Source: Acidobacteriota bacterium
Lineage (GTDB): Bacteria; Actinomycetota; Acidimicrobiia; Acidimicrobiales; Microtrichaceae
Length of the DNA: 64,000 bases
Direction: 5' to 3'
Assembly (NCBI GenBank): GCA_003577145.1
Contig: QEUP01000004.1
Span: 124,001-188,000, forward strand
A program made the position numbers and the translations under genes. The notes under the pieces were generated by a model. The model did not search any database and was not told where the DNA came from. It saw nothing but the letters and a program-made list of their open reading frames with translations. Position 1 is the stretch's first letter. Each line of letters starts with the position of its first letter. Shown piece by piece: positions 21,067 through 35,376 of the stretch.

Positions 21067-21113
21067 TTCACCCTAGCCCGAGGTGATGTCGAAGCAGCCA
21101 CTCACTGATGGAG

Positions 21114-21135
21114 TACCTGACACGCGTGTCAGGTA
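21114..21135. promoter_or_regulatory. 22-bp perfect palindrome, TetR-type operator
   Basis: Arms TACCTGAC/GTCAGGTA around ACGCGT, ending 11 bases before the start of the acyl-CoA synthetase (GTG 21147). Best-conserved member of the CTGAC-N6-GTCAG set. Confidence 0.75.
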
Positions 21136-21146
21136 AGGTGCCGACC

Positions 21147-23306
21147 GTGACCTCCTGCCCCGACTCCGACGTCACCGGAAGGCCGGTCGCACTGCGCGAC
21201 CTGGACCTCGGGTCCTTCTTCGAGCCCGGCACCGTCGTGGTGATAGGCGCTTCTGACACCGCCCGCCGACCCAACACGGCCATGTGGCGCAAGATCCGCC
21301 AGTGGGCCGAGGGCCACGGTGCCACCGTCTACCCTGTCAACCCCAACCGGGACACCATCGACGGTCAGCCGTGCTTCAGCGAGCTCGCCGAGGTACCCGG
21401 TGAAATCGACCTGGCGGTGATCCTGGTAAATGACGCCGTCAACGCTTTGCGCCAGGCCATCGACCGCAAGGCGCGGTTCGCGGTCATCTTCGCCGCCGGC
21501 TTCGCCGAGGTGGGAGACGAGGGTCAACAGCGCCAGCACGAGATCGAAGAGCTGCTCGCCGGTGCAGCCACCCACCTGCTCGGCCCGAACACCAACCTCA
21601 ACGCCTTCGAGACCTTTCGCCAGGACCTCCCGGGTCCGTCCATCGCGCTGATCACCCAGAGCGGGCACCAGGGGCGTCCGGTCTTCCAAGCCCAGGATCT
21701 CGGTATCGCCATCTCCCACTGGGCACCCACCGGCAACGAAGCCGACCTCGAGTTCGCCGACTTCGCCCGGTTCTTCGCCGACCAACCCGACGTAGGTGTC
21801 ATAGCCGCCTACATAGAGGGCTTCAAGGACGGCCGCACGCTGATGCTCGCCGCAGACCACGCTGCCCAGCGGGGTGTGCCGCTCGTCGTCGTCAAGGTCG
21901 GCCGCACCACCGAGGGCCGGTCGATGGCGGCCAGCCACACCGGGCACCTCGCGGGGTCCGACGAGATCTGTTCGGCTGTCTTCCGTCAGTTCGGCGTCAC
22001 ACGCGTGGACGGCCTCGACGACCTGACCGACACCGCGGCAATGCTCGCCAGGACCCGACCACCCCGGGGCGACGGCGTGTGCATCTACGCCATCTCGGGC
22101 GGTACCGGCGCCCACATGGCCGACATGGCTGCGGCCGCCGGCTTGCGTCTCCCCGAGCTGACGAAAAAGACCCAGGGGCTCCTCCACGAGTGGATCCCCA
22201 CCTACCTGAGGGTCTCGAATCCCGTCGACAACGGGGGCCCGCCCAGCGCCGACGAACGTGGCCGCAAGATCCTCGATGCGATCATCGCCGATCCCAACGT
22301 CGATCTCGTCATCTGCCCCATCACCGGTGCTCTGGCATCGATCTCGGCTCCCCTGGCGCGAGATCTCGTTGCCGCAGCCGAAACCACCGACAAGCCCATC
22401 TGCGTCATCTGGGGTTCGCCCGTCACCGAGGGCGAGCGCGCCTGGGAGACACTGGTCAACTCGCAGCTGCCGCTGTTCCGGACCTTTGACAACTGCGTGG
22501 AAGCGGTGCGCGCCTACTTCGACTACCACGAGTTCGTCGGCAACTACCGGAGCCCCTTCGCTATGCCGGTGCTCGAGGCCTCCCCCGCCGCCGAGCAAGT
22601 CCGGCCGTTGATCTCCACCGCCGATCGGCTGTCGGAGCACACCTCCAAGCAGGTTCTCGCAGCGTATGGCATCCCCGTCACCGAGGACATCCTCGTCTCC
22701 TCTGCCGCTGAGGCCTCCCGTGCCGCCGCCAAGCTCGGCTTCCCAGTGGTGATGAAGATCTGCTCGCCGGACCTGCTCCACAAGTCCGACGCCGGCCTCG
22801 TCGCTGTGGGCGTCACATCAGCGGCCGAGGCGAAGCGGACCTTCGGCGAGCTGAGCGACCGGGCGGCCAGAGCCGACGAAGCAGCACGTGTCGAGGGAGT
22901 GCTCGTCTGCGAGATGGTCTCGGGAGGGGTCGAAGCAGTGGTGGGGGTCAGCAACGACGACTTCTTCGGGCCCACGGTCATGTTCGGGCTCGGAGGGGTG
23001 TTCGTCGAAGTCCTGCGAGACATCAGCTTCCGCGTTCCACCGTTCGATCGCCGCGAGGCGCACCGCATGATCGAGGAGATCCGGGGGCTACCCCTCCTGC
23101 GCGGTGCCCGGGGTCGTCCCACGGCCGACATCGATGCGCTGGTCGATGTGTTGATGAGGGTCCAGACGCTCGCCGTCGACCACGCATCGACCGTCGCTGA
23201 AGTCGACATCAACCCGTTGCTCGTCTCCGAGCGGGGAGCGGTGGCGTTGGACGCTCTCGTCGTCCCCTCCGGTCAACAGAGCGAGCCGGCATGGGATCTG
23301 CGCTGA
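21147..23306 (+). CDS. ADP-forming (NDP-forming) acyl-CoA synthetase, acetate-CoA ligase family
   Basis: 719 residues with the fused alpha-beta architecture: N-terminal CoA-binding Rossmann domain (VVVIGASDTARRP), succinyl-CoA-ligase-like middle domains with the phospho-His loop ASHTGHLAGSDE, and a C-terminal ATP-grasp domain (AKLGFPVVMKICSPDLLHKSDAG ... VDINPLL). It would activate a carboxylic acid to its CoA thioester with release of ADP and phosphate. GTG 21147 is chosen: AGGTAAGG lies 9 bases upstream, whereas the earlier ATG 21108 would place the operator palindrome inside the gene. It overlaps the next gene by 16 bases and leads the operon synthetase-thiolase-DUF35. Confidence 0.9.
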   Translation: MTSCPDSDVTGRPVALRDLDLGSFFEPGTVVVIGASDTARRPNTAMWRKIRQWAEGHGATVYPVNPNRDTIDGQPCFSELAEVPGEIDLAVILVNDAVNALRQAIDRKARFAVIFAAGFAEVGDEGQQRQHEIEELLAGAATHLLGPNTNLNAFETFRQDLPGPSIALITQSGHQGRPVFQAQDLGIAISHWAPTGNEADLEFADFARFFADQPDVGVIAAYIEGFKDGRTLMLAADHAAQRGVPLVVVKVGRTTEGRSMAASHTGHLAGSDEICSAVFRQFGVTRVDGLDDLTDTAAMLARTRPPRGDGVCIYAISGGTGAHMADMAAAAGLRLPELTKKTQGLLHEWIPTYLRVSNPVDNGGPPSADERGRKILDAIIADPNVDLVICPITGALASISAPLARDLVAAAETTDKPICVIWGSPVTEGERAWETLVNSQLPLFRTFDNCVEAVRAYFDYHEFVGNYRSPFAMPVLEASPAAEQVRPLISTADRLSEHTSKQVLAAYGIPVTEDILVSSAAEASRAAAKLGFPVVMKICSPDLLHKSDAGLVAVGVTSAAEAKRTFGELSDRAARADEAARVEGVLVCEMVSGGVEAVVGVSNDDFFGPTVMFGLGGVFVEVLRDISFRVPPFDRREAHRMIEEIRGLPLLRGARGRPTADIDALVDVLMRVQTLAVDHASTVAEVDINPLLVSERGAVALDALVVPSGQQSEPAWDLR

Positions 23307-24445
23307 GGGACAAGGCCGCCATCGTCGGGGTGGGCCAGACGGAGTTCGCCAAGCAGTTGCCCGGCACCGAGATCGAGCTCGCGCTGCGCGCGATCACGAT
23401 GGCCCTCGATGATGCCGGCATCCCGGTCACCGATGTCGACGGCCTCGCCTCCTACACCATGGAGGACACCGAGGAGGTCGACATCGCCCGGAACCTGGGT
23501 ACGGGGCCCATCACCTGGTTCGGCCAGGTCGGCTACGGGGGTGGTGCAGGATGTGGCGTGGTCGGGAACGCGGCCATGGCCGTCGCCTCCGGCCAGTGCG
23601 ACGTCGCGGTGGCCTGGCGCTCGCGCAAGAGGGGCGGTCGGGCGTCACGGCCATGGGCCGGGGTCGGATCCAAGGTTTACGGCTACCAGCAGTGGACCAG
23701 GCCCTTCGGGCTCCTGCGCCCCGTTGACGAGATCGCCATGCTCGCCCGTCGATACATGCACGAGTACGGGATGACCAGGGAGCAGCTGGCGTGTGTGGCG
23801 CTCACCCAGCGGCGCTTCGCCAACAACAACCCCGGGGCCATGATGCACGAGAAGGCCCTGACCCTCGACGACTACCTGGCTGCTCGGTGGATCTCCGAGC
23901 CCCTGTGCCTGTTCGACAACTGCCTGGAGTCCGACGGGGCCGGGGCGGTCGTGATCTGCTCGACCGACCGGGCCAAGGACCTGGACCGGCAGCCGGTGCT
24001 CGTCCATGCTTTCGCGCAGTCCATACCCCCCCAGCTCCAGACGATGACGAACTACTTCTGCGACGACCCGTTGAGGGGCCCGTCCTGGGAGTGTGCCGAG
24101 AGGCTCTGGCGCAACGCCGATCTCGGCCCTGAGGATGTCGACGTGGCACAGATCTACGACGCCTTCTCACCGCTGGTGCCCCTGTCCTTGGAGGGCTACC
24201 GGTTCTGCGGGCGAGGTGAGGGCAAGGACTTCATCAGCGACGGCTCCATCGGCCCCGGGGGCAGCTTGCCGGTCAACACCTCCGGGGCGGGCATGTCCGA
24301 GGCATACGTCCACGGGTTCAACCTCATCGTGGAAGGCGTCAGGCAGTTGCGGGACGAGTCCCCGAACCAGGTGGACAACGCCCGGACCTGCCTCGTCACC
24401 AGCGGTGAAGGCGTACCGACGAGCGCGCTGCTCTTGAGGAGATGA
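23291..24445 (+). CDS. Thiolase-superfamily protein, Ltp2-like (probable retro-aldolase/lipid-transfer type)
   Basis: 384 residues with thiolase-fold landmarks: AIVGVGQTEFAK, AAMAVASGQCDVAVAWRS, ARRYMHEYGMTREQLA, EDVDVAQIYDAFSPL, CGRGEGKDFI and NTSGAGMSEAYVHG. The catalytic Cys position of thiolases (CxxG) is not conserved: Cys88 is followed by GVVG so Gly89 falls at the expected place, and the HPxGATG box is replaced by EAYVHG with Tyr339. This matches steroid side-chain aldolase Ltp2, which uses tyrosines in a remodelled active site and works with a DUF35 partner; that partner is the next gene, 3 bases away. The substrate (a beta-hydroxyacyl-CoA) is inferred. Confidence 0.85.
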   Translation: MGSALRDKAAIVGVGQTEFAKQLPGTEIELALRAITMALDDAGIPVTDVDGLASYTMEDTEEVDIARNLGTGPITWFGQVGYGGGAGCGVVGNAAMAVASGQCDVAVAWRSRKRGGRASRPWAGVGSKVYGYQQWTRPFGLLRPVDEIAMLARRYMHEYGMTREQLACVALTQRRFANNNPGAMMHEKALTLDDYLAARWISEPLCLFDNCLESDGAGAVVICSTDRAKDLDRQPVLVHAFAQSIPPQLQTMTNYFCDDPLRGPSWECAERLWRNADLGPEDVDVAQIYDAFSPLVPLSLEGYRFCGRGEGKDFISDGSIGPGGSLPVNTSGAGMSEAYVHGFNLIVEGVRQLRDESPNQVDNARTCLVTSGEGVPTSALLLRR

Positions 24446-24448
24446 CCT

Positions 24449-24892
24449 GTGGCCGACGATTCGTTCCTGCTGCCGGGCACCGACGAGTACTCCACGGACT
24501 TCTGGGCCGGTTTCGCCGATGACAAGCTGCTCCTCCAGACCTGCTCATCGTGCGGGTCGGCCCGCTACCCCACCCGGCCGATGTGTCCCGACTGCCGCTC
24601 GCTCGACTATCACTGGCAGGAGGCCTCCGGACGGGCGACGATCTGGTCTTTCGTGGTCGCCCACCCACCGGTACTGCCCGCCTACGCCGAGTTCGCCCCG
24701 TACAACGTCGTCGTCGTCGAGCTCGAGGACTTCCCCGGCATCCGCATGGTCGGCAACCTCGTGGCTGCGGCCGACGCTCCCATCAACAGCGTCGATCCGC
24801 ACGGCATCTCGATCGGCGAGCCCGTCGAGATCGTCTTCAGCCCCGTTTCCGAGGACCTCACCTTCCCCCGCTGGCGCCGCTCCAGCCCCTGA
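24449..24892 (+). CDS. DUF35 OB-fold/zinc-ribbon partner of the thiolase-like enzyme
   Basis: 147 residues from GTG. An N-terminal helix (FWAGFADDKLLLQ) leads to a rubredoxin-like zinc ribbon with CSSC and CPDC, then an OB fold (RATIWSFVVAHPP ... APYNVVVVELED). DUF35 proteins bind the CoA moiety or bridge thiolase-fold enzymes, as in Ltp2-ChsH2(DUF35) and the archaeal thiolase-HMGCS complex. Directly follows its likely partner. Its stop codon lies at the foot of a strong hairpin. Confidence 0.92.
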   Translation: MADDSFLLPGTDEYSTDFWAGFADDKLLLQTCSSCGSARYPTRPMCPDCRSLDYHWQEASGRATIWSFVVAHPPVLPAYAEFAPYNVVVVELEDFPGIRMVGNLVAAADAPINSVDPHGISIGEPVEIVFSPVSEDLTFPRWRRSSP

Positions 24893-24951
24893 ACGCGTTT
24901 TGTGAACGCGGAAGGCCCCTATAGGGGCAGTTTCCGTTCACAAAACGCGTT
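24892..24951. terminator. Long hairpin (17-bp perfect arms) after the DUF35 gene
   Basis: AACGCGTTTTGTGAACG (24892-24908) pairs perfectly with CGTTCACAAAACGCGTT (24935-24951); inside is a second perfect palindrome GCCCCTATAGGGGC. It overlaps the DUF35 stop codon and is followed by TTCG, so it likely ends the operon. Its AT-rich arms differ from the GC-rich surroundings, so a small mobile element is an alternative. Confidence 0.7.
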
Positions 24952-24996
24952 TTCGTAGCATCTCCTGGCTGGCGATATCGGTCCGAGGAGGTGAAG

Positions 24997-29837: not shown

Positions 29838-29852
29838 CGCCGGTGATCCGTG

Positions 29853-31157
29853 ATGCCACACGACGACGCCCCGACCACACGCGAGAGCGACGGTCCAGAG
29901 GATCGTCCCGCTGGGGGTGACAGCACCCACCCATCCGGCGGAGCAGAGCAGGATGGTGCCCAGCCGGGCGAGGACAGACCTGACCGCGAGGACAGACCTG
30001 ACCGCGAGGACAGACCTGACCGCGAGGACAGACCTGACCGCGAGGACAGACCTGACCGCGAGGACGAGGTTGCGGCTGACGAGTCCTTCGTTCAACGCTG
30101 GTTCGGCTCCCCCGCCCGGCTGGTGGGCCGCATCATCTGGCTCACGATCACCGGACTGGCGCTCTACTTCGTGTACCCGAGCCTGGTGAAGCTGTTCGGA
30201 CAGTTCGACCAGCTCAAGGAGGTCGCCTGGTGGGCGTTCAGCATCATGTTCGCCTTTCAGGCGGCGAGCTTCGTCTGCCAGTGGTGGCTCATGAAGATCG
30301 CCATGGTCGATGTCAGCTGGTTCACCATCGGCACATCCCAACTGGCAGCCAACGCGATGGCCAACGCAGTGCCCGCGGGTACCGCCGCGGGCGCGGCTCT
30401 GCAGCAGCGGATGATGATCGAGTCCGGCATAGATCCCACTCGTTCGGTCACCGGGGTCGCGGCGGTGACCCTGATCAGCTACGCCACGATCTTCGCGTTC
30501 CCCGTCCTCGCTCTGCCCGCGCTCCTCTTCGGCGCCGCGGTGGACCCAGGTCTGGTACACGCGACGATCCTGGCCGCGCTCCTCTTCCCGCTCTTGTACG
30601 TCGCGGGCTGGTGGCTCATGCGCAAGGATCACCCCGTCGAGTACATCGGTCGCACTCTTCAGCGCCTCATCAACTGGTTCAACCGTCGTTTCCGACCGAC
30701 TCACCCACCGCTCGATGATCTCGCCGAACGGGTCGTGGCCCAACGCAACGAGATCCGCTCCAGCCTGGGGTCGCGCTGGCACCGGGCCCTCGCCGCAGCT
30801 GTGGGGAACTGGGGCTTCGACTTCCTGGCGCTCTGGGTTGCCGTGTACGCAGTGGGTTCCCGCCCCCGTTCGGCGTTGGTGCTGCTCGCCTACGTCGTCG
30901 CCAAGGTGATCGCGATGTTCCCCATCACACCCGGCGGCATCGGCTTGGTCGAGGCCGGCCTGACCGGCATGTTGACCCTGGCAGGGGTCCCGGCAACCAA
31001 CGCTGCGCTGGCCACCCTCGCGTTCCGCCTCGTGTCGTACTGGCTACCCATGCCGGCCGGTGTCATCGCCTACTTCATGCATCGCCACCGCGTGAGAGCC
31101 GGGCGCCTCGACAGCGCCGGCGAGGCCACGACCGGCTCACGAGGCCACGACGCCTGA
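29853..31157 (+). CDS. YbhN/AglD-type flippase-like membrane protein (LPG synthase TM family)
   Basis: 434 residues from ATG 29853. The first 75 residues are hydrophilic with five tandem EDRPDR units. From about residue 85 there are six to eight membrane segments with family motifs: NAVPAGTAAGAALQQRM (loop between helices) and KVIAMFPITPGGIGLVEAGL. Members are putative lipid flippases or the membrane part of lysyl-phosphatidylglycerol synthase; no cytosolic aminoacyltransferase domain is present here. It likely forms an operon with the acyl-CoA synthetase upstream. Confidence 0.88.
   Translation: MPHDDAPTTRESDGPEDRPAGGDSTHPSGGAEQDGAQPGEDRPDREDRPDREDRPDREDRPDREDRPDREDEVAADESFVQRWFGSPARLVGRIIWLTITGLALYFVYPSLVKLFGQFDQLKEVAWWAFSIMFAFQAASFVCQWWLMKIAMVDVSWFTIGTSQLAANAMANAVPAGTAAGAALQQRMMIESGIDPTRSVTGVAAVTLISYATIFAFPVLALPALLFGAAVDPGLVHATILAALLFPLLYVAGWWLMRKDHPVEYIGRTLQRLINWFNRRFRPTHPPLDDLAERVVAQRNEIRSSLGSRWHRALAAAVGNWGFDFLALWVAVYAVGSRPRSALVLLAYVVAKVIAMFPITPGGIGLVEAGLTGMLTLAGVPATNAALATLAFRLVSYWLPMPAGVIAYFMHRHRVRAGRLDSAGEATTGSRGHDA
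29970..30065 (+). repeat. 18-bp in-frame tandem repeat (five perfect copies plus a partial)
   Basis: Unit GAGGACAGACCTGACCGC, encoding EDRPDR, repeats exactly five times (29970-30059) then GAGGAC. Identity at DNA level indicates recent slippage; copy-number change would lengthen or shorten a charged N-terminal tail without frameshift. Confidence 0.97.
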
Positions 31158-31188: not shown

Positions 31189-31214
31189 GTTTGCTGACAC
31201 GGACGTCAGCAAAC
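31189..31214. promoter_or_regulatory. Palindromic operator upstream of aldolase-thiolase operon
   Basis: GTTTGCTGAC and GTCAGCAAAC, perfect 10-bp arms around ACGGAC; core CTGAC-N6-GTCAG. It lies 63 bases before the ATG at 31277. A second small palindrome TACCGAACCGGTA follows at 31222-31234. Confidence 0.75.
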
Positions 31215-31276: not shown

Positions 31277-31978
31277 ATGACAACAAGCGACAGAACCAGC
31301 CCCACGCTGGACAGTCCACCCGACCCGGAGAGGGCTCATTCGATGCATGAACGTGTTCTGAAGGTCGCCAAGGAGATGCTGGCCAAGAACCTGGTCAGCG
31401 GCACGGCGGGGAACGTCTCGGGCCGACTCGCCGACGGCAACGTCGTCATGACACCGTCCTCCATGGGCTACGAGGAAATGACGCTCGAAGATCTGTGCGT
31501 GGTCGACCTCGACGGCAACAAGGTCGAAGGCAAGGGCGACCCGTCGAGCGAGAAGGCCCTACATCTGGCTCAGTACCGCGCTTACGACGAGGTCGGCGGT
31601 GTCATGCACTGTCACCCGATCCACGGCTCCATGTTCGCCCTGACCCACGAACCCATTCCCGCCACCATCGAGGAGTTCGTGGTCTACGTCGGTGGAGAGG
31701 TCCCCATCTGCGAGTACAAGCCGGCGGGTAGCGACGAGTTGGCGACAGAGGTGGCGAGCAAGCTGGGTGAGCGGGCTGCGGCGCTGATGGCCAACCACGG
31801 CATGGTCTCGGTCGGTGCGGACCCCGAGAACGCCCTTCACGTCGCCGAGGTCGTCGAGCGTTGCGCTCACGTCATATGGGGGGCACGCCAGATGGGCAGC
31901 ACGGTCCACGAACTGCCGCGGGAAGTGAACGACAACTTCGCCGGCGTCTACCGGTTCGTCAGAGAGAACAGGTTGTAG
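31277..31978 (+). CDS. Class II aldolase/adducin-family protein
   Basis: 233 residues. The zinc site is complete: HCHP (His111, His113) and NHGM (His174), with catalytic Glu92 in PSSEKALHL, and GTAGNVSGR binding the phosphate or carboxylate end. Family members cleave or form C-C bonds via a zinc enediolate (fuculose-phosphate aldolase type). Here it opens an operon of thiolase-like, thiolase and crotonase genes, so a hydroxyacyl-CoA or ketone retro-aldol step is more likely than sugar metabolism; this is inference. Four bases separate it from the next gene. The first 20 residues are a poorly conserved tail. Confidence 0.88.
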   Translation: MTTSDRTSPTLDSPPDPERAHSMHERVLKVAKEMLAKNLVSGTAGNVSGRLADGNVVMTPSSMGYEEMTLEDLCVVDLDGNKVEGKGDPSSEKALHLAQYRAYDEVGGVMHCHPIHGSMFALTHEPIPATIEEFVVYVGGEVPICEYKPAGSDELATEVASKLGERAAALMANHGMVSVGADPENALHVAEVVERCAHVIWGARQMGSTVHELPREVNDNFAGVYRFVRENRL

Positions 31979-31982
31979 CCCG

Positions 31983-33407
31983 ATGACACAGCCGTTGAGC
32001 ATCCGGGGAGTCGGTGCGGCAGCATCGACGCTGCGACTGCCGGCGGCGGCTGTCAATGCCGGATGGGGCCGGCAAGGGGGCCGCGGTTCCAGCGCCGTGT
32101 GCGCCGCGGACGAGGACTCGTTGACCCTCGGCTGGCAGGCGGCCGTCACGGCGATCGAGGCCGCCGGCATCCGACCCGACGAGATCGACGGCTTGTGGTG
32201 GGGCACGAGCAGGCCACCCTTCGCCGAGGGGCCCAGCCAGGCGTATCTCGCCTCGGCCCTGGGCCTGCGCGCAGGGATCGGGGGAGCCTTGCTGGCAGGG
32301 TCGCAGCACTCGGGGATCGAGGCCCTGCTGGGCGCGTGGGACGCGGTCGCCGCCGGTTCAGCCGGCACCGTGCTCGTGATCGCCTCCGATGCCCTCGTCC
32401 CGTCGCTCGGCTCGGCGTTCGAAGGGCGGTGCGGAGCAGCGGCCGTCGCGCTGGTGGCCGCGCTCGACGGAGGGTCGGCATCGTTCACGGTCCGGCTTCA
32501 GTCGACCCAGCCGGTTCTGGACCGCTACCGGGGCGACGCCGAGGCCGAAACGAGGGACCTGTACGACTCCCGCCTGTTCCGCGAGGAGGTGTTCGTCCCG
32601 ACCGTGACCGCGATGGCCGAGCGGCTCGGCGCCTCGCCAGACACCCGCTGGTCACTGCCCGACCCGGACGGCCGCATGGGAAGCTCGGTCGCACGCAAGA
32701 TCACAGGCCAGCCCCCGGTTTCAGCCGACATCCACGCCGCGTTGGGCGATACCGGAGCTGCCGCGTCGCTGCTGGGAGGACTTCCCGCGCTCGGTGAGCC
32801 CGGGCCGCTCGCCGTGATCACCTACGCAGCCGGTCGCTGCACGGGGGTCCTCGCCCAGGTCGACTCGCCGGTACCGGGAGTCCACCAGGCGCTCCAGGCG
32901 CTGTCCCGGGGCCGGGAGGCGTCCTATGTCGAGGTGCTTCGCGCTCGCCGGCAGCTGATCGCCGGCGGTGAGACGGTGGAGATGGCGGTCCCGCCGGGTG
33001 GAGCCCAGTTCGTGCGCGGCAACCCCGAGATGCTGGGACTCCTCGGCGCCCGCTGCTGCGACTGCGGAACCGTGAACACGCCGCCGTCGATCCACCCTGT
33101 CTGCATCGCCTGCGGCGGAGAGAAGCTCGAGCCCGTAGCCCTGTCCCGGAGGGGGGTCGTCCACACCTACGTCGTCAACTACACCATGCCGGCCCCCTTC
33201 GAGGCGCCACTGCCGCTGGTGGTCGTCGACCTCGATGACGGTGCCCGGGTCATGCTGCAAGGGGTGGCGCCGGGAGAAGGGATCGAGATCGGTGCGGAGG
33301 TGAGGCTGGTGCTGCGCCGCTACACCGTCGAACGGGGAGTGCCGGTCTACGGGTACAAGGCCGAGGCCGTCGCCGCGGTCCCGGCCAACCCGGAGGGAGG
33401 GGACTGA
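31983..33407 (+). CDS. HMG-CoA synthase/KAS III-like protein fused to a DUF35 domain
   Basis: 474 residues. Residues about 1-330 are a thiolase-fold domain of the HMG-CoA-synthase/KAS III branch (SIRGVGAAASTLRLP, AIEAAGIRPDEIDGLWWGT, GDTGAAASLLGGLPAL). Residues about 340-460 are a DUF35 unit: helix, zinc ribbon with Cys358/Cys361 and Cys374/Cys377, and OB fold (GVVHTYVVNYTMPAPFEAPLPLVVVDLDD). At the expected nucleophile position (C in ACxG) the sequence is GSQHSGIEAL with His109, so the usual Cys chemistry seems lost. The next gene, overlapping by one base, is a canonical thiolase, giving the same three modules as the archaeal thiolase-HMGCS-DUF35 complex. Confidence 0.87.
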   Translation: MTQPLSIRGVGAAASTLRLPAAAVNAGWGRQGGRGSSAVCAADEDSLTLGWQAAVTAIEAAGIRPDEIDGLWWGTSRPPFAEGPSQAYLASALGLRAGIGGALLAGSQHSGIEALLGAWDAVAAGSAGTVLVIASDALVPSLGSAFEGRCGAAAVALVAALDGGSASFTVRLQSTQPVLDRYRGDAEAETRDLYDSRLFREEVFVPTVTAMAERLGASPDTRWSLPDPDGRMGSSVARKITGQPPVSADIHAALGDTGAAASLLGGLPALGEPGPLAVITYAAGRCTGVLAQVDSPVPGVHQALQALSRGREASYVEVLRARRQLIAGGETVEMAVPPGGAQFVRGNPEMLGLLGARCCDCGTVNTPPSIHPVCIACGGEKLEPVALSRRGVVHTYVVNYTMPAPFEAPLPLVVVDLDDGARVMLQGVAPGEGIEIGAEVRLVLRRYTVERGVPVYGYKAEAVAAVPANPEGGD

Positions 33408-34585
33408 TGGCTTGGAACAAGGTGGCCGTCATCGGCGCCGGGCTCTTGAAGTTCGGCGAGCTGTTCGACAAGAGCTACGAGCAGATGGCCGCCGAAGCGT
33501 TTCAGGCAGCTATCGGCAGCGTTGACAAGGGCTTCGACCCCGCCATGGTCGAAGCCGCCTTCGTCTCCACCCAGCGTGGGACGTTGTGGGGCCAGGAGGG
33601 GATCGCCGGAAACACCGTCCCGAGCGCGATCGGCCTCGCCGGGATCGCCTGCACGAGGATCGAGAACGCCTGTCCGTCCGGCAGCGACGCTTTTCGCGTC
33701 GGTGCCATGGCTGTCGCCAGCGGCGTCCACGACGTCGTGCTGGTCATCGGCGTCGAGAAGATGCGGGACAAGTCAAGCGACGAGGGGCTGTTGGCACGTG
33801 CAGCCTCGGGCCATCCGGTCTACACGCGCGGTGAGAGCGCACCGGTCCTGTTCGCGCCCTTCGCGACCCGGCACATGCACGAGTTCGGCACCACGAGGGA
33901 GATGCTCGCGTCGGTCGCGGTCAAGAACCACTACAACGGCGCCCGCGATCCATACGCCCACTTCCGCAACGAGATCACCATCGAGGACGTGCTCAGCGCG
34001 CCGCCCGTGTGCCATCCCCTAGGCCTACTCGACTGCTGCCCACAGACCGACGGCGCCGCGGCTGCCCTCCTGGCTCCCGCTGATCGGGCTGTCGAGTTCA
34101 CCGACAGGCCGGTCTACATCGCCGGCTTCGGGGTTGCGACCGACCACCCCTACCTCCACGAGAAGGCGAGCTTCGTCGGCCTACCAGCCACGACCGCGGC
34201 ATCACAGCGCGCCTACGAGATGGCGGGTATCGGTCCCGGAGACATCGACATGGCCGAGGTGCACGACTGCTTCACCATCACCGAGATCCTCGACATCGAG
34301 GACCTCGGGTTCTGCGAGAAGGGGAAGGGTGGGGTGATGTCGATCGAGGGCGACACGGCGCTAAGCGGTCGTCTCCCGGTCAACACCTCCGGAGGCCTGC
34401 TGGCAAAGGGACACCCGATCGGCGCCACGGGCATCGCTCAGCTGACCGAGTGCTGGTGGCAGCTGCGCGAGGACGCCGGCGAGAGGCAGGTTCGGCTGGA
34501 GCAGGGATTCGCGCTGCAGCACAACGTGGGAGGCAGAGGCTCGGGTGTCTCGGTGGTCAACATCTTGACGAGGAACGAACGGTGA
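33407..34585 (+). CDS. Thiolase (SCP-x/acetyl-CoA acetyltransferase type)
   Basis: 392 residues, ATG sharing one base with the upstream stop (TGATG). Canonical active site: nucleophile Cys89 in ENACPSGSDAF, His286 in EVHDCFTITE, His336 in GGLLAKGHPIGATG. It would perform thiolytic cleavage of a 3-ketoacyl-CoA or its reverse. Since the overlapping neighbour carries a DUF35 domain, the two probably form one complex. Its stop overlaps the crotonase start (GTGA). Confidence 0.93.
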   Translation: MAWNKVAVIGAGLLKFGELFDKSYEQMAAEAFQAAIGSVDKGFDPAMVEAAFVSTQRGTLWGQEGIAGNTVPSAIGLAGIACTRIENACPSGSDAFRVGAMAVASGVHDVVLVIGVEKMRDKSSDEGLLARAASGHPVYTRGESAPVLFAPFATRHMHEFGTTREMLASVAVKNHYNGARDPYAHFRNEITIEDVLSAPPVCHPLGLLDCCPQTDGAAAALLAPADRAVEFTDRPVYIAGFGVATDHPYLHEKASFVGLPATTAASQRAYEMAGIGPGDIDMAEVHDCFTITEILDIEDLGFCEKGKGGVMSIEGDTALSGRLPVNTSGGLLAKGHPIGATGIAQLTECWWQLREDAGERQVRLEQGFALQHNVGGRGSGVSVVNILTRNER

Positions 34586-35376
34586 TCCGCACCGAGATCG
34601 GTGACGACCACGTCTGCCGGGTGGTACTCGACCGTCCTGAAGCCAAGAACGCGCTGTCGGTGGAGATGAGAGACGACCTCGTGGCCGGAATCCGGGCAGC
34701 GCGGATGGATCGACAAGTGAGATCGGTGCTGTTGACGGGCGTGGGTGACGCCTTCTGCGCAGGCATGGACCTGACCCAGTCGACCGTCGCCAGGGCAGGC
34801 GACGAGGGGTTTCAGACCCGCAGCACGTCCGAAGCCCTGCGAGTAGGCGTGCAGGCGCTGATCCGCGAGCTCTGGGAGCTCGACAAGCCGACGGTCGCCG
34901 CGGTGAACGGCGCAGCGGTCGGTCCGGGCGCGCACATCGCGCTGGCCTGTGACTTCGTCATCGTCCACCCTCTCACCGTGTTCATCTGGTCCTTCTCCAA
35001 GTGGGGGCTCGTGGTCGACGGCGGCGGTGCCTACCTCCTCCCCAGGCTCGTGGGCCTGCCGCGGGCCAAGGAGCTGGTGATGCTCGGCGGCAAGGTGGGC
35101 GGGGCCGAGGCCGTCGAAGAAGGCCTGGCGCACCGATGCGTGCCCGCCGATGAGCTCGCCGGGGAGGCCCACACCCTCGCCGCTCGTCTGGCCACCGGCC
35201 CCACCCGTTCGCTGGGTCTGTCCAAACGGCTCCTCAACGAGAGCCTCGAGACAGATCTATCCCGACTCCTCGACCTCGAGGGCCACTTCCAGGCGCTGGC
35301 CACCACCTCGCCGGACCTCGACGAGGGCATGGCGGCGTTCAAGGAGAAGCGCGACGCCCGCTTCACCGGCGAGTGA
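34582..35376 (+). CDS. Crotonase-family isomerase-like protein
   Basis: 264 residues from GTG 34582. Crotonase landmarks: VVLDRPEAKNALS, GDAFCAGMDL, NGAAVGPGAHIALACDFVI and WGLVVDGGGAYLLPRLVG. Both usual catalytic Glu positions differ (His in GPGAHIAL, Ser in WSFSKWG), while the Asp of LVVDGGG is kept; this resembles PaaG-like isomerases that use Asp. A double-bond shift or ring-epoxide isomerisation is therefore more likely than hydration. Last gene of the 31277-35376 operon. Confidence 0.9.
   Translation: MIRTEIGDDHVCRVVLDRPEAKNALSVEMRDDLVAGIRAARMDRQVRSVLLTGVGDAFCAGMDLTQSTVARAGDEGFQTRSTSEALRVGVQALIRELWELDKPTVAAVNGAAVGPGAHIALACDFVIVHPLTVFIWSFSKWGLVVDGGGAYLLPRLVGLPRAKELVMLGGKVGGAEAVEEGLAHRCVPADELAGEAHTLAARLATGPTRSLGLSKRLLNESLETDLSRLLDLEGHFQALATTSPDLDEGMAAFKEKRDARFTGE

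Follow-up and report, generated by a model that had tools for sequence, protein, structure and literature searches.

Organization of the locus

The window, the whole 64,000-nucleotide stretch of DNA analysed here, contains a gene encoding an HMGCS-like domain fused to DUF35, followed directly by a thiolase gene. Both open reading frames lie where the initial annotation had placed them, and the one-base overlap that it described is confirmed: the A of the fusion gene's stop codon, TGA (33405–33407), is also the first base of the thiolase ATG. The gap between the aldolase gene and the fusion gene is four bases, and the 3' end of the thiolase gene overlaps the crotonase gene by 4 bases. The features of the locus are as follows.

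31190–31213, no strand: TTTGCTGAC-N6-GTCAGCAAA, a perfect inverted repeat and probably the operon's operator
31277–31978, + strand: class II aldolase (FucA-like; PF00596, E 1.6e-50), first gene of the operon, accessory
31983–33407, + strand: fused HMGCS-like and DUF35 gene, 474 aa, assigned from domains, profile alignment and an AlphaFold2 model; residues ~1–335 thiolase fold, residues ~345–463 zinc ribbon and OB fold
32208–32210, + strand: Ser76 codon, aligned with catalytic Glu82 of archaeal HMGCS
32304–32309, + strand: Gln108 and His109 codons, aligned with nucleophile Cys114 and Lys115
32658–32660, + strand: Pro226 codon, aligned with His238 of archaeal HMGCS
33407–34585, + strand: thiolase gene, 392 aa, with Cys89, H286-D-C288-F and His336; presumed active subunit
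34582–35376, + strand: crotonase-family hydratase/isomerase (PF00378, E 1.2e-52)

By its profile matches and cysteines, the C-terminal part of the fusion is DUF35, an OB fold with a Cys4 zinc ribbon. PF01796 (DUF35, OB_ChsH2_C) matches residues 385–444 above the Pfam cut-off (E 1.2e-10) and the Pfam zinc ribbon PF12172 matches residues 353–383 weakly (19.7 versus a cut-off of 23.2), while Cys358, Cys361, Cys374 and Cys377 of the ribbon are invariant across 26 orthologues. The N-terminal part is HMGCS-like. A profile of 41 fused relatives matched the archaeal HMGCS 6esq_I at E 1e-52 over 339 positions, with further matches to PhlA, MucA, MvaS and FabH and, separately, to the DUF35 chain 6esq_E. 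The AlphaFold2 model of the window fusion (pLDDT 90.5, pTM 0.91; the linker around residues 330–345 is weak) was used for a Foldseek search of the PDB, which retrieved first 6esq_I/J, the archaeal complex's HMGCS, and next PhlA and MucA. The equivalog models for archaeal-type HMGCS scored below cut-off on the fusion (TIGR00748, 37.5 versus 353 bits; NF003274, 74 versus 244 bits).

The product of 33407–34585 is by sequence a canonical SCP2/archaeal-type thiolase, in which Pfam detects thiolase domains. Its best sequence match was the archaeal acetoacetyl-CoA thiolase 6esq_A (E 8e-82, 278 bits), followed by a Pyrococcus thiolase and SCP2 thiolases, with PhlC far weaker at about 111 bits. The matches to PF01796, 6esq_I and 6esq_A thus uphold two further claims of the initial annotation, namely that the pair has the three modules known from the archaeal thiolase/DUF35/HMGCS complex, two of which are fused here, and that the overlapping thiolase is canonical.

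The former HMGCS active site

The archaeal HMGCS residues Cys114 and Lys115 aligned with Gln108 and His109 of the fusion both in the profile alignment, for which the archaeal reference was the Methanothermococcus HMGCS, and in a separate MAFFT alignment that included the full archaeal sequence. In the MAFFT alignment, Glu82 corresponded to Ser76, and His238 (in FHQPNGK), which we take to be the third catalytic residue of archaeal HMGCS, corresponded to Pro226. The catalytic Glu, Cys and His were found in these three columns in 0 of 72 fused proteins; all three were present in archaeal HMGCS and in one unfused Methylobacterium HMGCS in the same alignment. Glu82 and Cys114 are reported as key residues of the archaeal enzyme (PMC6392133). 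It had been proposed that His109 replaces the synthase cysteine. The loss of the cysteine stands, but His109 as a substituted nucleophile does not, as both alignments place it one position off, on Lys115; that Glu82 and His238 are replaced as well had been overlooked. A check for another cysteine at the nucleophile position was likewise negative, with neither Cys150 nor any other Cys of the fusion aligning with Cys114.

With the catalytic set gone in every fused member that we read, the HMGCS-like domain would be a pseudoenzyme, and because the whole Glu–Cys–His set is missing, variant chemistry in this domain is not our first choice. Some features of the old site nevertheless speak for the alternative that the domain keeps or has gained chemistry, or offers a second acyl-CoA site, in series with the thiolase. 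His109 is invariant in 26/26 orthologues while the adjoining former Cys column, 108, varies among close orthologues (Q/T/P/A/S/I). Within the window's clade, the three former active-site loops are also enriched in invariant residues, with 20/39 positions versus 62/296 (P~1e-4, a guide only, the sequences being related); the other fused clades showed no such enrichment. Since these loop residues are more invariant than a bare scaffold would need, the former synthase pocket may bind an acyl chain or CoA, or act anew. However, the nucleophile is absent and the Glu, Cys and His positions are all substituted. Column 109 is Arg or Lys in most other fused clades and Lys in archaeal HMGCS and PhlA, and Arg or Lys in that column fits a structural or CoA-contacting role. 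A shared CoA site could also account for the conservation, and we consider a working second site unlikely. A specific form of the idea, to which we give a similarly low chance, is that in the window's clade the former site has been rebuilt as a second functional pocket around Arg77, His109, Asp227, Asp229 and Arg231, all of which are invariant around the old active site. If true, this pocket would bind or transform the acyl-CoA that it receives from the thiolase, and the catabolic complex would be bifunctional, with a chemistry not known for HMGCS or PhlA.

Distribution and genomic context of the fused pair

Matches were found in 62 of 296 sampled genomes of the class and, at a looser cut-off, in 49 of 396 sampled genomes of the phylum. 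The pair is built in the same way at 25 loci of close orthologues and at over 40 other fused loci, a recurrence that goes beyond chance. A thiolase gene adjoins the fusion gene at every locus with flanking sequence (loci L118 and L120 end at a contig edge). The fused proteins are usually annotated as 'OB-fold' or 'zinc ribbon domain-containing protein'. In the window's own genome, which encodes 18 DUF35 domains, there are three further, distantly related fused genes, 24–31% identical to the window's and each with a thiolase adjoining it (G000:C40:7858-9282, C48:2372-3778 and C10:62000-63373).

In a tree of the HMGCS-like domain that held only six unfused sequences, the fused proteins formed one group (UFBoot 97) that left out archaeal HMGCS, PhlA and MucA, and the haloarchaeal clade adjoined the window's clade. 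A single fusion event is likely from this tree, as thinly tested with those six unfused sequences. The zinc-ribbon cysteines have been lost in 7 of 16 distant fusions of the class (L088, L090–L094 and L097), which retain the OB fold and still have a partner thiolase. A 795-aa ORF joining fusion and thiolase (L079, 7208–9592, − strand) was considered as a natural three-in-one protein and rejected, as its DUF35 end is out of frame with its relatives; it is most likely a frameshift or assembly error.

Among the 25 orthologous loci, a crotonase gene lies downstream on the same strand in 23, an SDR gene in 15 and an acyl-CoA dehydrogenase gene in 13. A class II aldolase, which had also been taken to suggest a degradative role, lies immediately 5' of the fusion gene in only one of the 25, and we rejected it as a functional partner. 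Rhodococcus, Mycobacterium avium, Sphingobium and Azoarcus have related fused pairs within catabolic clusters, some of which carry ring-hydroxylating dioxygenases and AMP-binding ligases; acyl-CoA ligase and P450 genes are also among the neighbours of fused pairs. On haloarchaeal plasmids (L109–L113) the thiolase gene comes first and the fusion gene second, with a 1–4-base overlap in 5/5, and some of the haloarchaeal pairs adjoin hydroxyacyl-CoA dehydrogenase, enoyl-CoA hydratase or acyl-CoA dehydrogenase genes.

The inverted repeat at 31190–31213 precedes the aldolase gene, and shuffles of the window give an expectation of 0 for such repeats. Its 7-bp core arms, TGCTGAC-N6-GTCAGCA, recur perfectly once in the genome, at G000:C63:202283-202302 (L136 1501–1520), about 47 kb away, in the promoter region that separates an SDR gene from a divergent carbohydrate-kinase-like gene. 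The product of that SDR gene is 52–56% identical to the SDRs encoded after the fusion, thiolase and crotonase genes in 15 other genomes. The palindrome common to the operon and to this SDR gene, together with that identity, suggests that the SDR oxidation step, although split off, is still co-regulated with the operon, and the regulon site proposed by the initial annotation gains some support. No copy of the palindrome was found immediately upstream of the orthologous operons in other genomes, so it seems specific to the window's genome.

The predicted complex and its probable reaction

The two chains are predicted to form a complex. In one orthologous locus, L074, the two genes lie in frame about 30 codons apart; the spacer codons and the end of the first gene together hold four stops, and with these read as residues the pair becomes a single 908-aa chain. 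The AlphaFold2 model of this linked chain had a pTM of 0.83, with a disordered linker (pLDDT about 40). By our own estimate, parts placed at random would give a pTM of about 0.55, the share of the larger part, so the higher value predicts a defined interface between thiolase and fusion, as seen in one orthologue in an artificial linked form. A lack of any predicted interface would have counted against a complex, and the model instead predicts one.

Of the thiolase and the HMGCS-like domain, the thiolase was the more conserved in 300/300 orthologue pairs (means of 83% versus 57%, with DUF35 at 69%) and in 120/120 pairs from a distant fused group. Cys89, the HDCF motif (His286-Asp-Cys288-Phe) and, for the GHP loop, His336 were kept in 71/71 partner thiolases aligned. 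The thiolase-fold retro-aldolases Ltp2 and Sal have instead a Tyr in YDHF or YDCY (PMC12329534), and the presence of HDCF and Cys89 in place of this Tyr motif indicates thiolase chemistry. These residues point to the thiolase as the active site of the pair.

Several known systems share parts of this architecture; two close ones, PhlACB and MucABC, had been missed by the initial annotation. PhlACB (PDB 5M3K, 9SKH) resembles the window pair in that an active thiolase, PhlC, is joined by the DUF35 protein PhlB to an inactive HMGCS-like protein, PhlA, in which the Cys has become Gly115 and the Glu has become Cys83, so that residues of PhlC alone are catalytic (PMC6392133). It differs in being three separate chains and a biosynthetic, CoA-independent Friedel–Crafts C-acyltransferase, whereas the window pair has its PhlA- and PhlB-like parts in one chain and a catabolic setting. 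By analogy with PhlACB, the fusion would be a scaffold beside an active thiolase. The archaeal acetoacetyl-CoA thiolase/HMGCS/DUF35 complex (PDB 6ESQ) shares the folds and provides the best match of both window chains, but its HMGCS is active (Glu82, Cys114 and, in the third column, His238), whereas the HMGCS-like domain of the window appears dead and is fused. MucABC (PDB 9VBO) likewise has the three modules, with MucA lacking the Cys and carrying Glu in that column; unlike the window pair it is unfused, and it acetylates tetramic acids (PMC10161427). The benzoylsuccinyl-CoA thiolase BbsAB (PDB 7PXP) is catabolic, has a DUF35 subunit and cleaves an unusual 3-oxoacyl-CoA, but has no HMGCS-like module; the NCBIfam equivalogs for BbsA and BbsB scored far under cut-off on the window pair (40 versus 250 and 187 versus 750 bits, respectively). 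In Ltp2–ChsH2 and Sal–Shy a thiolase-fold enzyme is again paired with a DUF35 partner (ChsH2 and Shy) in lipid catabolism, but the reaction is retro-aldol, and the DUF35 of Shy is fused to MaoC and not to an HMGCS-like domain.

We favour, with a probability of about 0.66, a catabolic thiolase/DUF35/HMGCS-fold complex in which the thiolase cleaves a 3-oxoacyl-CoA (retro-Claisen) and the HMGCS-like fusion is an inactive scaffold. Thiolases are reversible enzymes, and we infer the direction of the reaction, the substrate class and the scaffold role of the pair. Cys89, together with His286, Cys288 and His336 of the thiolase, would cleave the 3-oxoacyl-CoA with CoA. The fused DUF35 would dock the HMGCS-like domain on the thiolase and help to make the CoA site, on the model of 6ESQ, whose CoA is reported to sit at an interface of all three proteins (PMC6392133). 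The HMGCS-like domain, as a dead paralogue, would complete the complex and would probably wall the CoA/acyl cavity. Hydration by the crotonase, oxidation by the SDR and thiolysis could then make up one β-oxidation-like turn on an unusual acyl-CoA, that is, a branched, cyclic or bulky one.

A biosynthetic C-acyltransferase like PhlACB or MucABC, which would transfer an acyl group from one carbon acceptor to another, would fit the three modules and the inactive HMGCS-like part, and PhlA and MucA do rank next after archaeal HMGCS as structural matches. Yet the fused proteins form their own clade outside PhlA and MucA, the bit scores place the thiolase nearer to archaeal acetoacetyl-CoA thiolase than to PhlC, and the neighbouring genes are acyl-CoA dehydrogenase, crotonase, SDR, acyl-CoA ligase and P450, with no polyketide or peptide synthetase seen beside fused pairs in the annotated loci. 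We regard such a function as quite improbable.

Retro-aldol cleavage, a variant raised by the initial annotation, would follow the example of Ltp2–ChsH2 and Sal–Shy, which are thiolase-fold and DUF35 pairs of lipid side-chain degradation (PMC12329534), and the Pfam model of the DUF35 domain bears the ChsH2 name. Against the variant stands the invariant HDCF motif with Cys89 and His336 where those enzymes have the Tyr of YDHF or YDCY; moreover, the class II aldolase next door lacks conservation as a neighbour and another pair in the window (23291/24449), with YDAF, fits that class better, which makes retro-aldol cleavage by the fused pair highly unlikely. Formation of HMG-CoA for mevalonate synthesis, for which the one recommendation is that 6ESQ is the closest solved complex, has a negligible chance and is already contradicted, as every HMGCS catalytic residue is gone, neither another HMGCS (PF01154) nor HMG-CoA reductase was found in the window's genome (assembly 96.6% complete) and the MEP-pathway gene dxr (DXR) is present. 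Mevalonate synthesis in this genome is thus practically ruled out, in agreement with the earlier view that a degradative, possibly retro-Claisen, role is likelier.

In 2010, DUF35 fusions to members of the thiolase superfamily were noted, as was the pairing of an active with an inactive member in phlABC (PMC2954200). Our literature search on the fused family found nothing beyond that remark, and the pair is apparently widespread and unstudied in bacteria and haloarchaea. What appears new here is the combination of a fused HMGCS–DUF35 protein that appears dead in all members read, an intact thiolase and catabolic clusters, across three major groups. The archaeal isoprenoid-entry complex and PhlACB look like two isolated cases; under the favoured reading, this plan of three modules, two of them fused and the synthase one inactive in all cases read, would be a widespread catabolic device of Actinomycetota, Pseudomonadota and haloarchaea. 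The long retention of an inactive synthase fold beside a thiolase becomes testable, and the fused family offers a target for finding acyl-CoAs that need the complex.

Elsewhere in the window, the second thiolase and DUF35 pair (23291–24892) is unfused, and its thiolase has YDAF rather than HDCF. In this it resembles the retro-aldolase branch of Ltp2 and Sal. The pair is preceded by an acyl-CoA synthetase (NDP-forming)-like gene (21108–23306). In the membrane protein encoded at 29850–31157, the N-terminal tail contains EDRPDR as a short tandem repeat (window ~29900–30000). Between the DUF35 gene of the second pair and the next gene, at 24892–24952, lies a long near-perfect inverted repeat, AACGCGTTTTGTGAACG...CGTTCACAAAACGCGTT, which may be a terminator or an operator.
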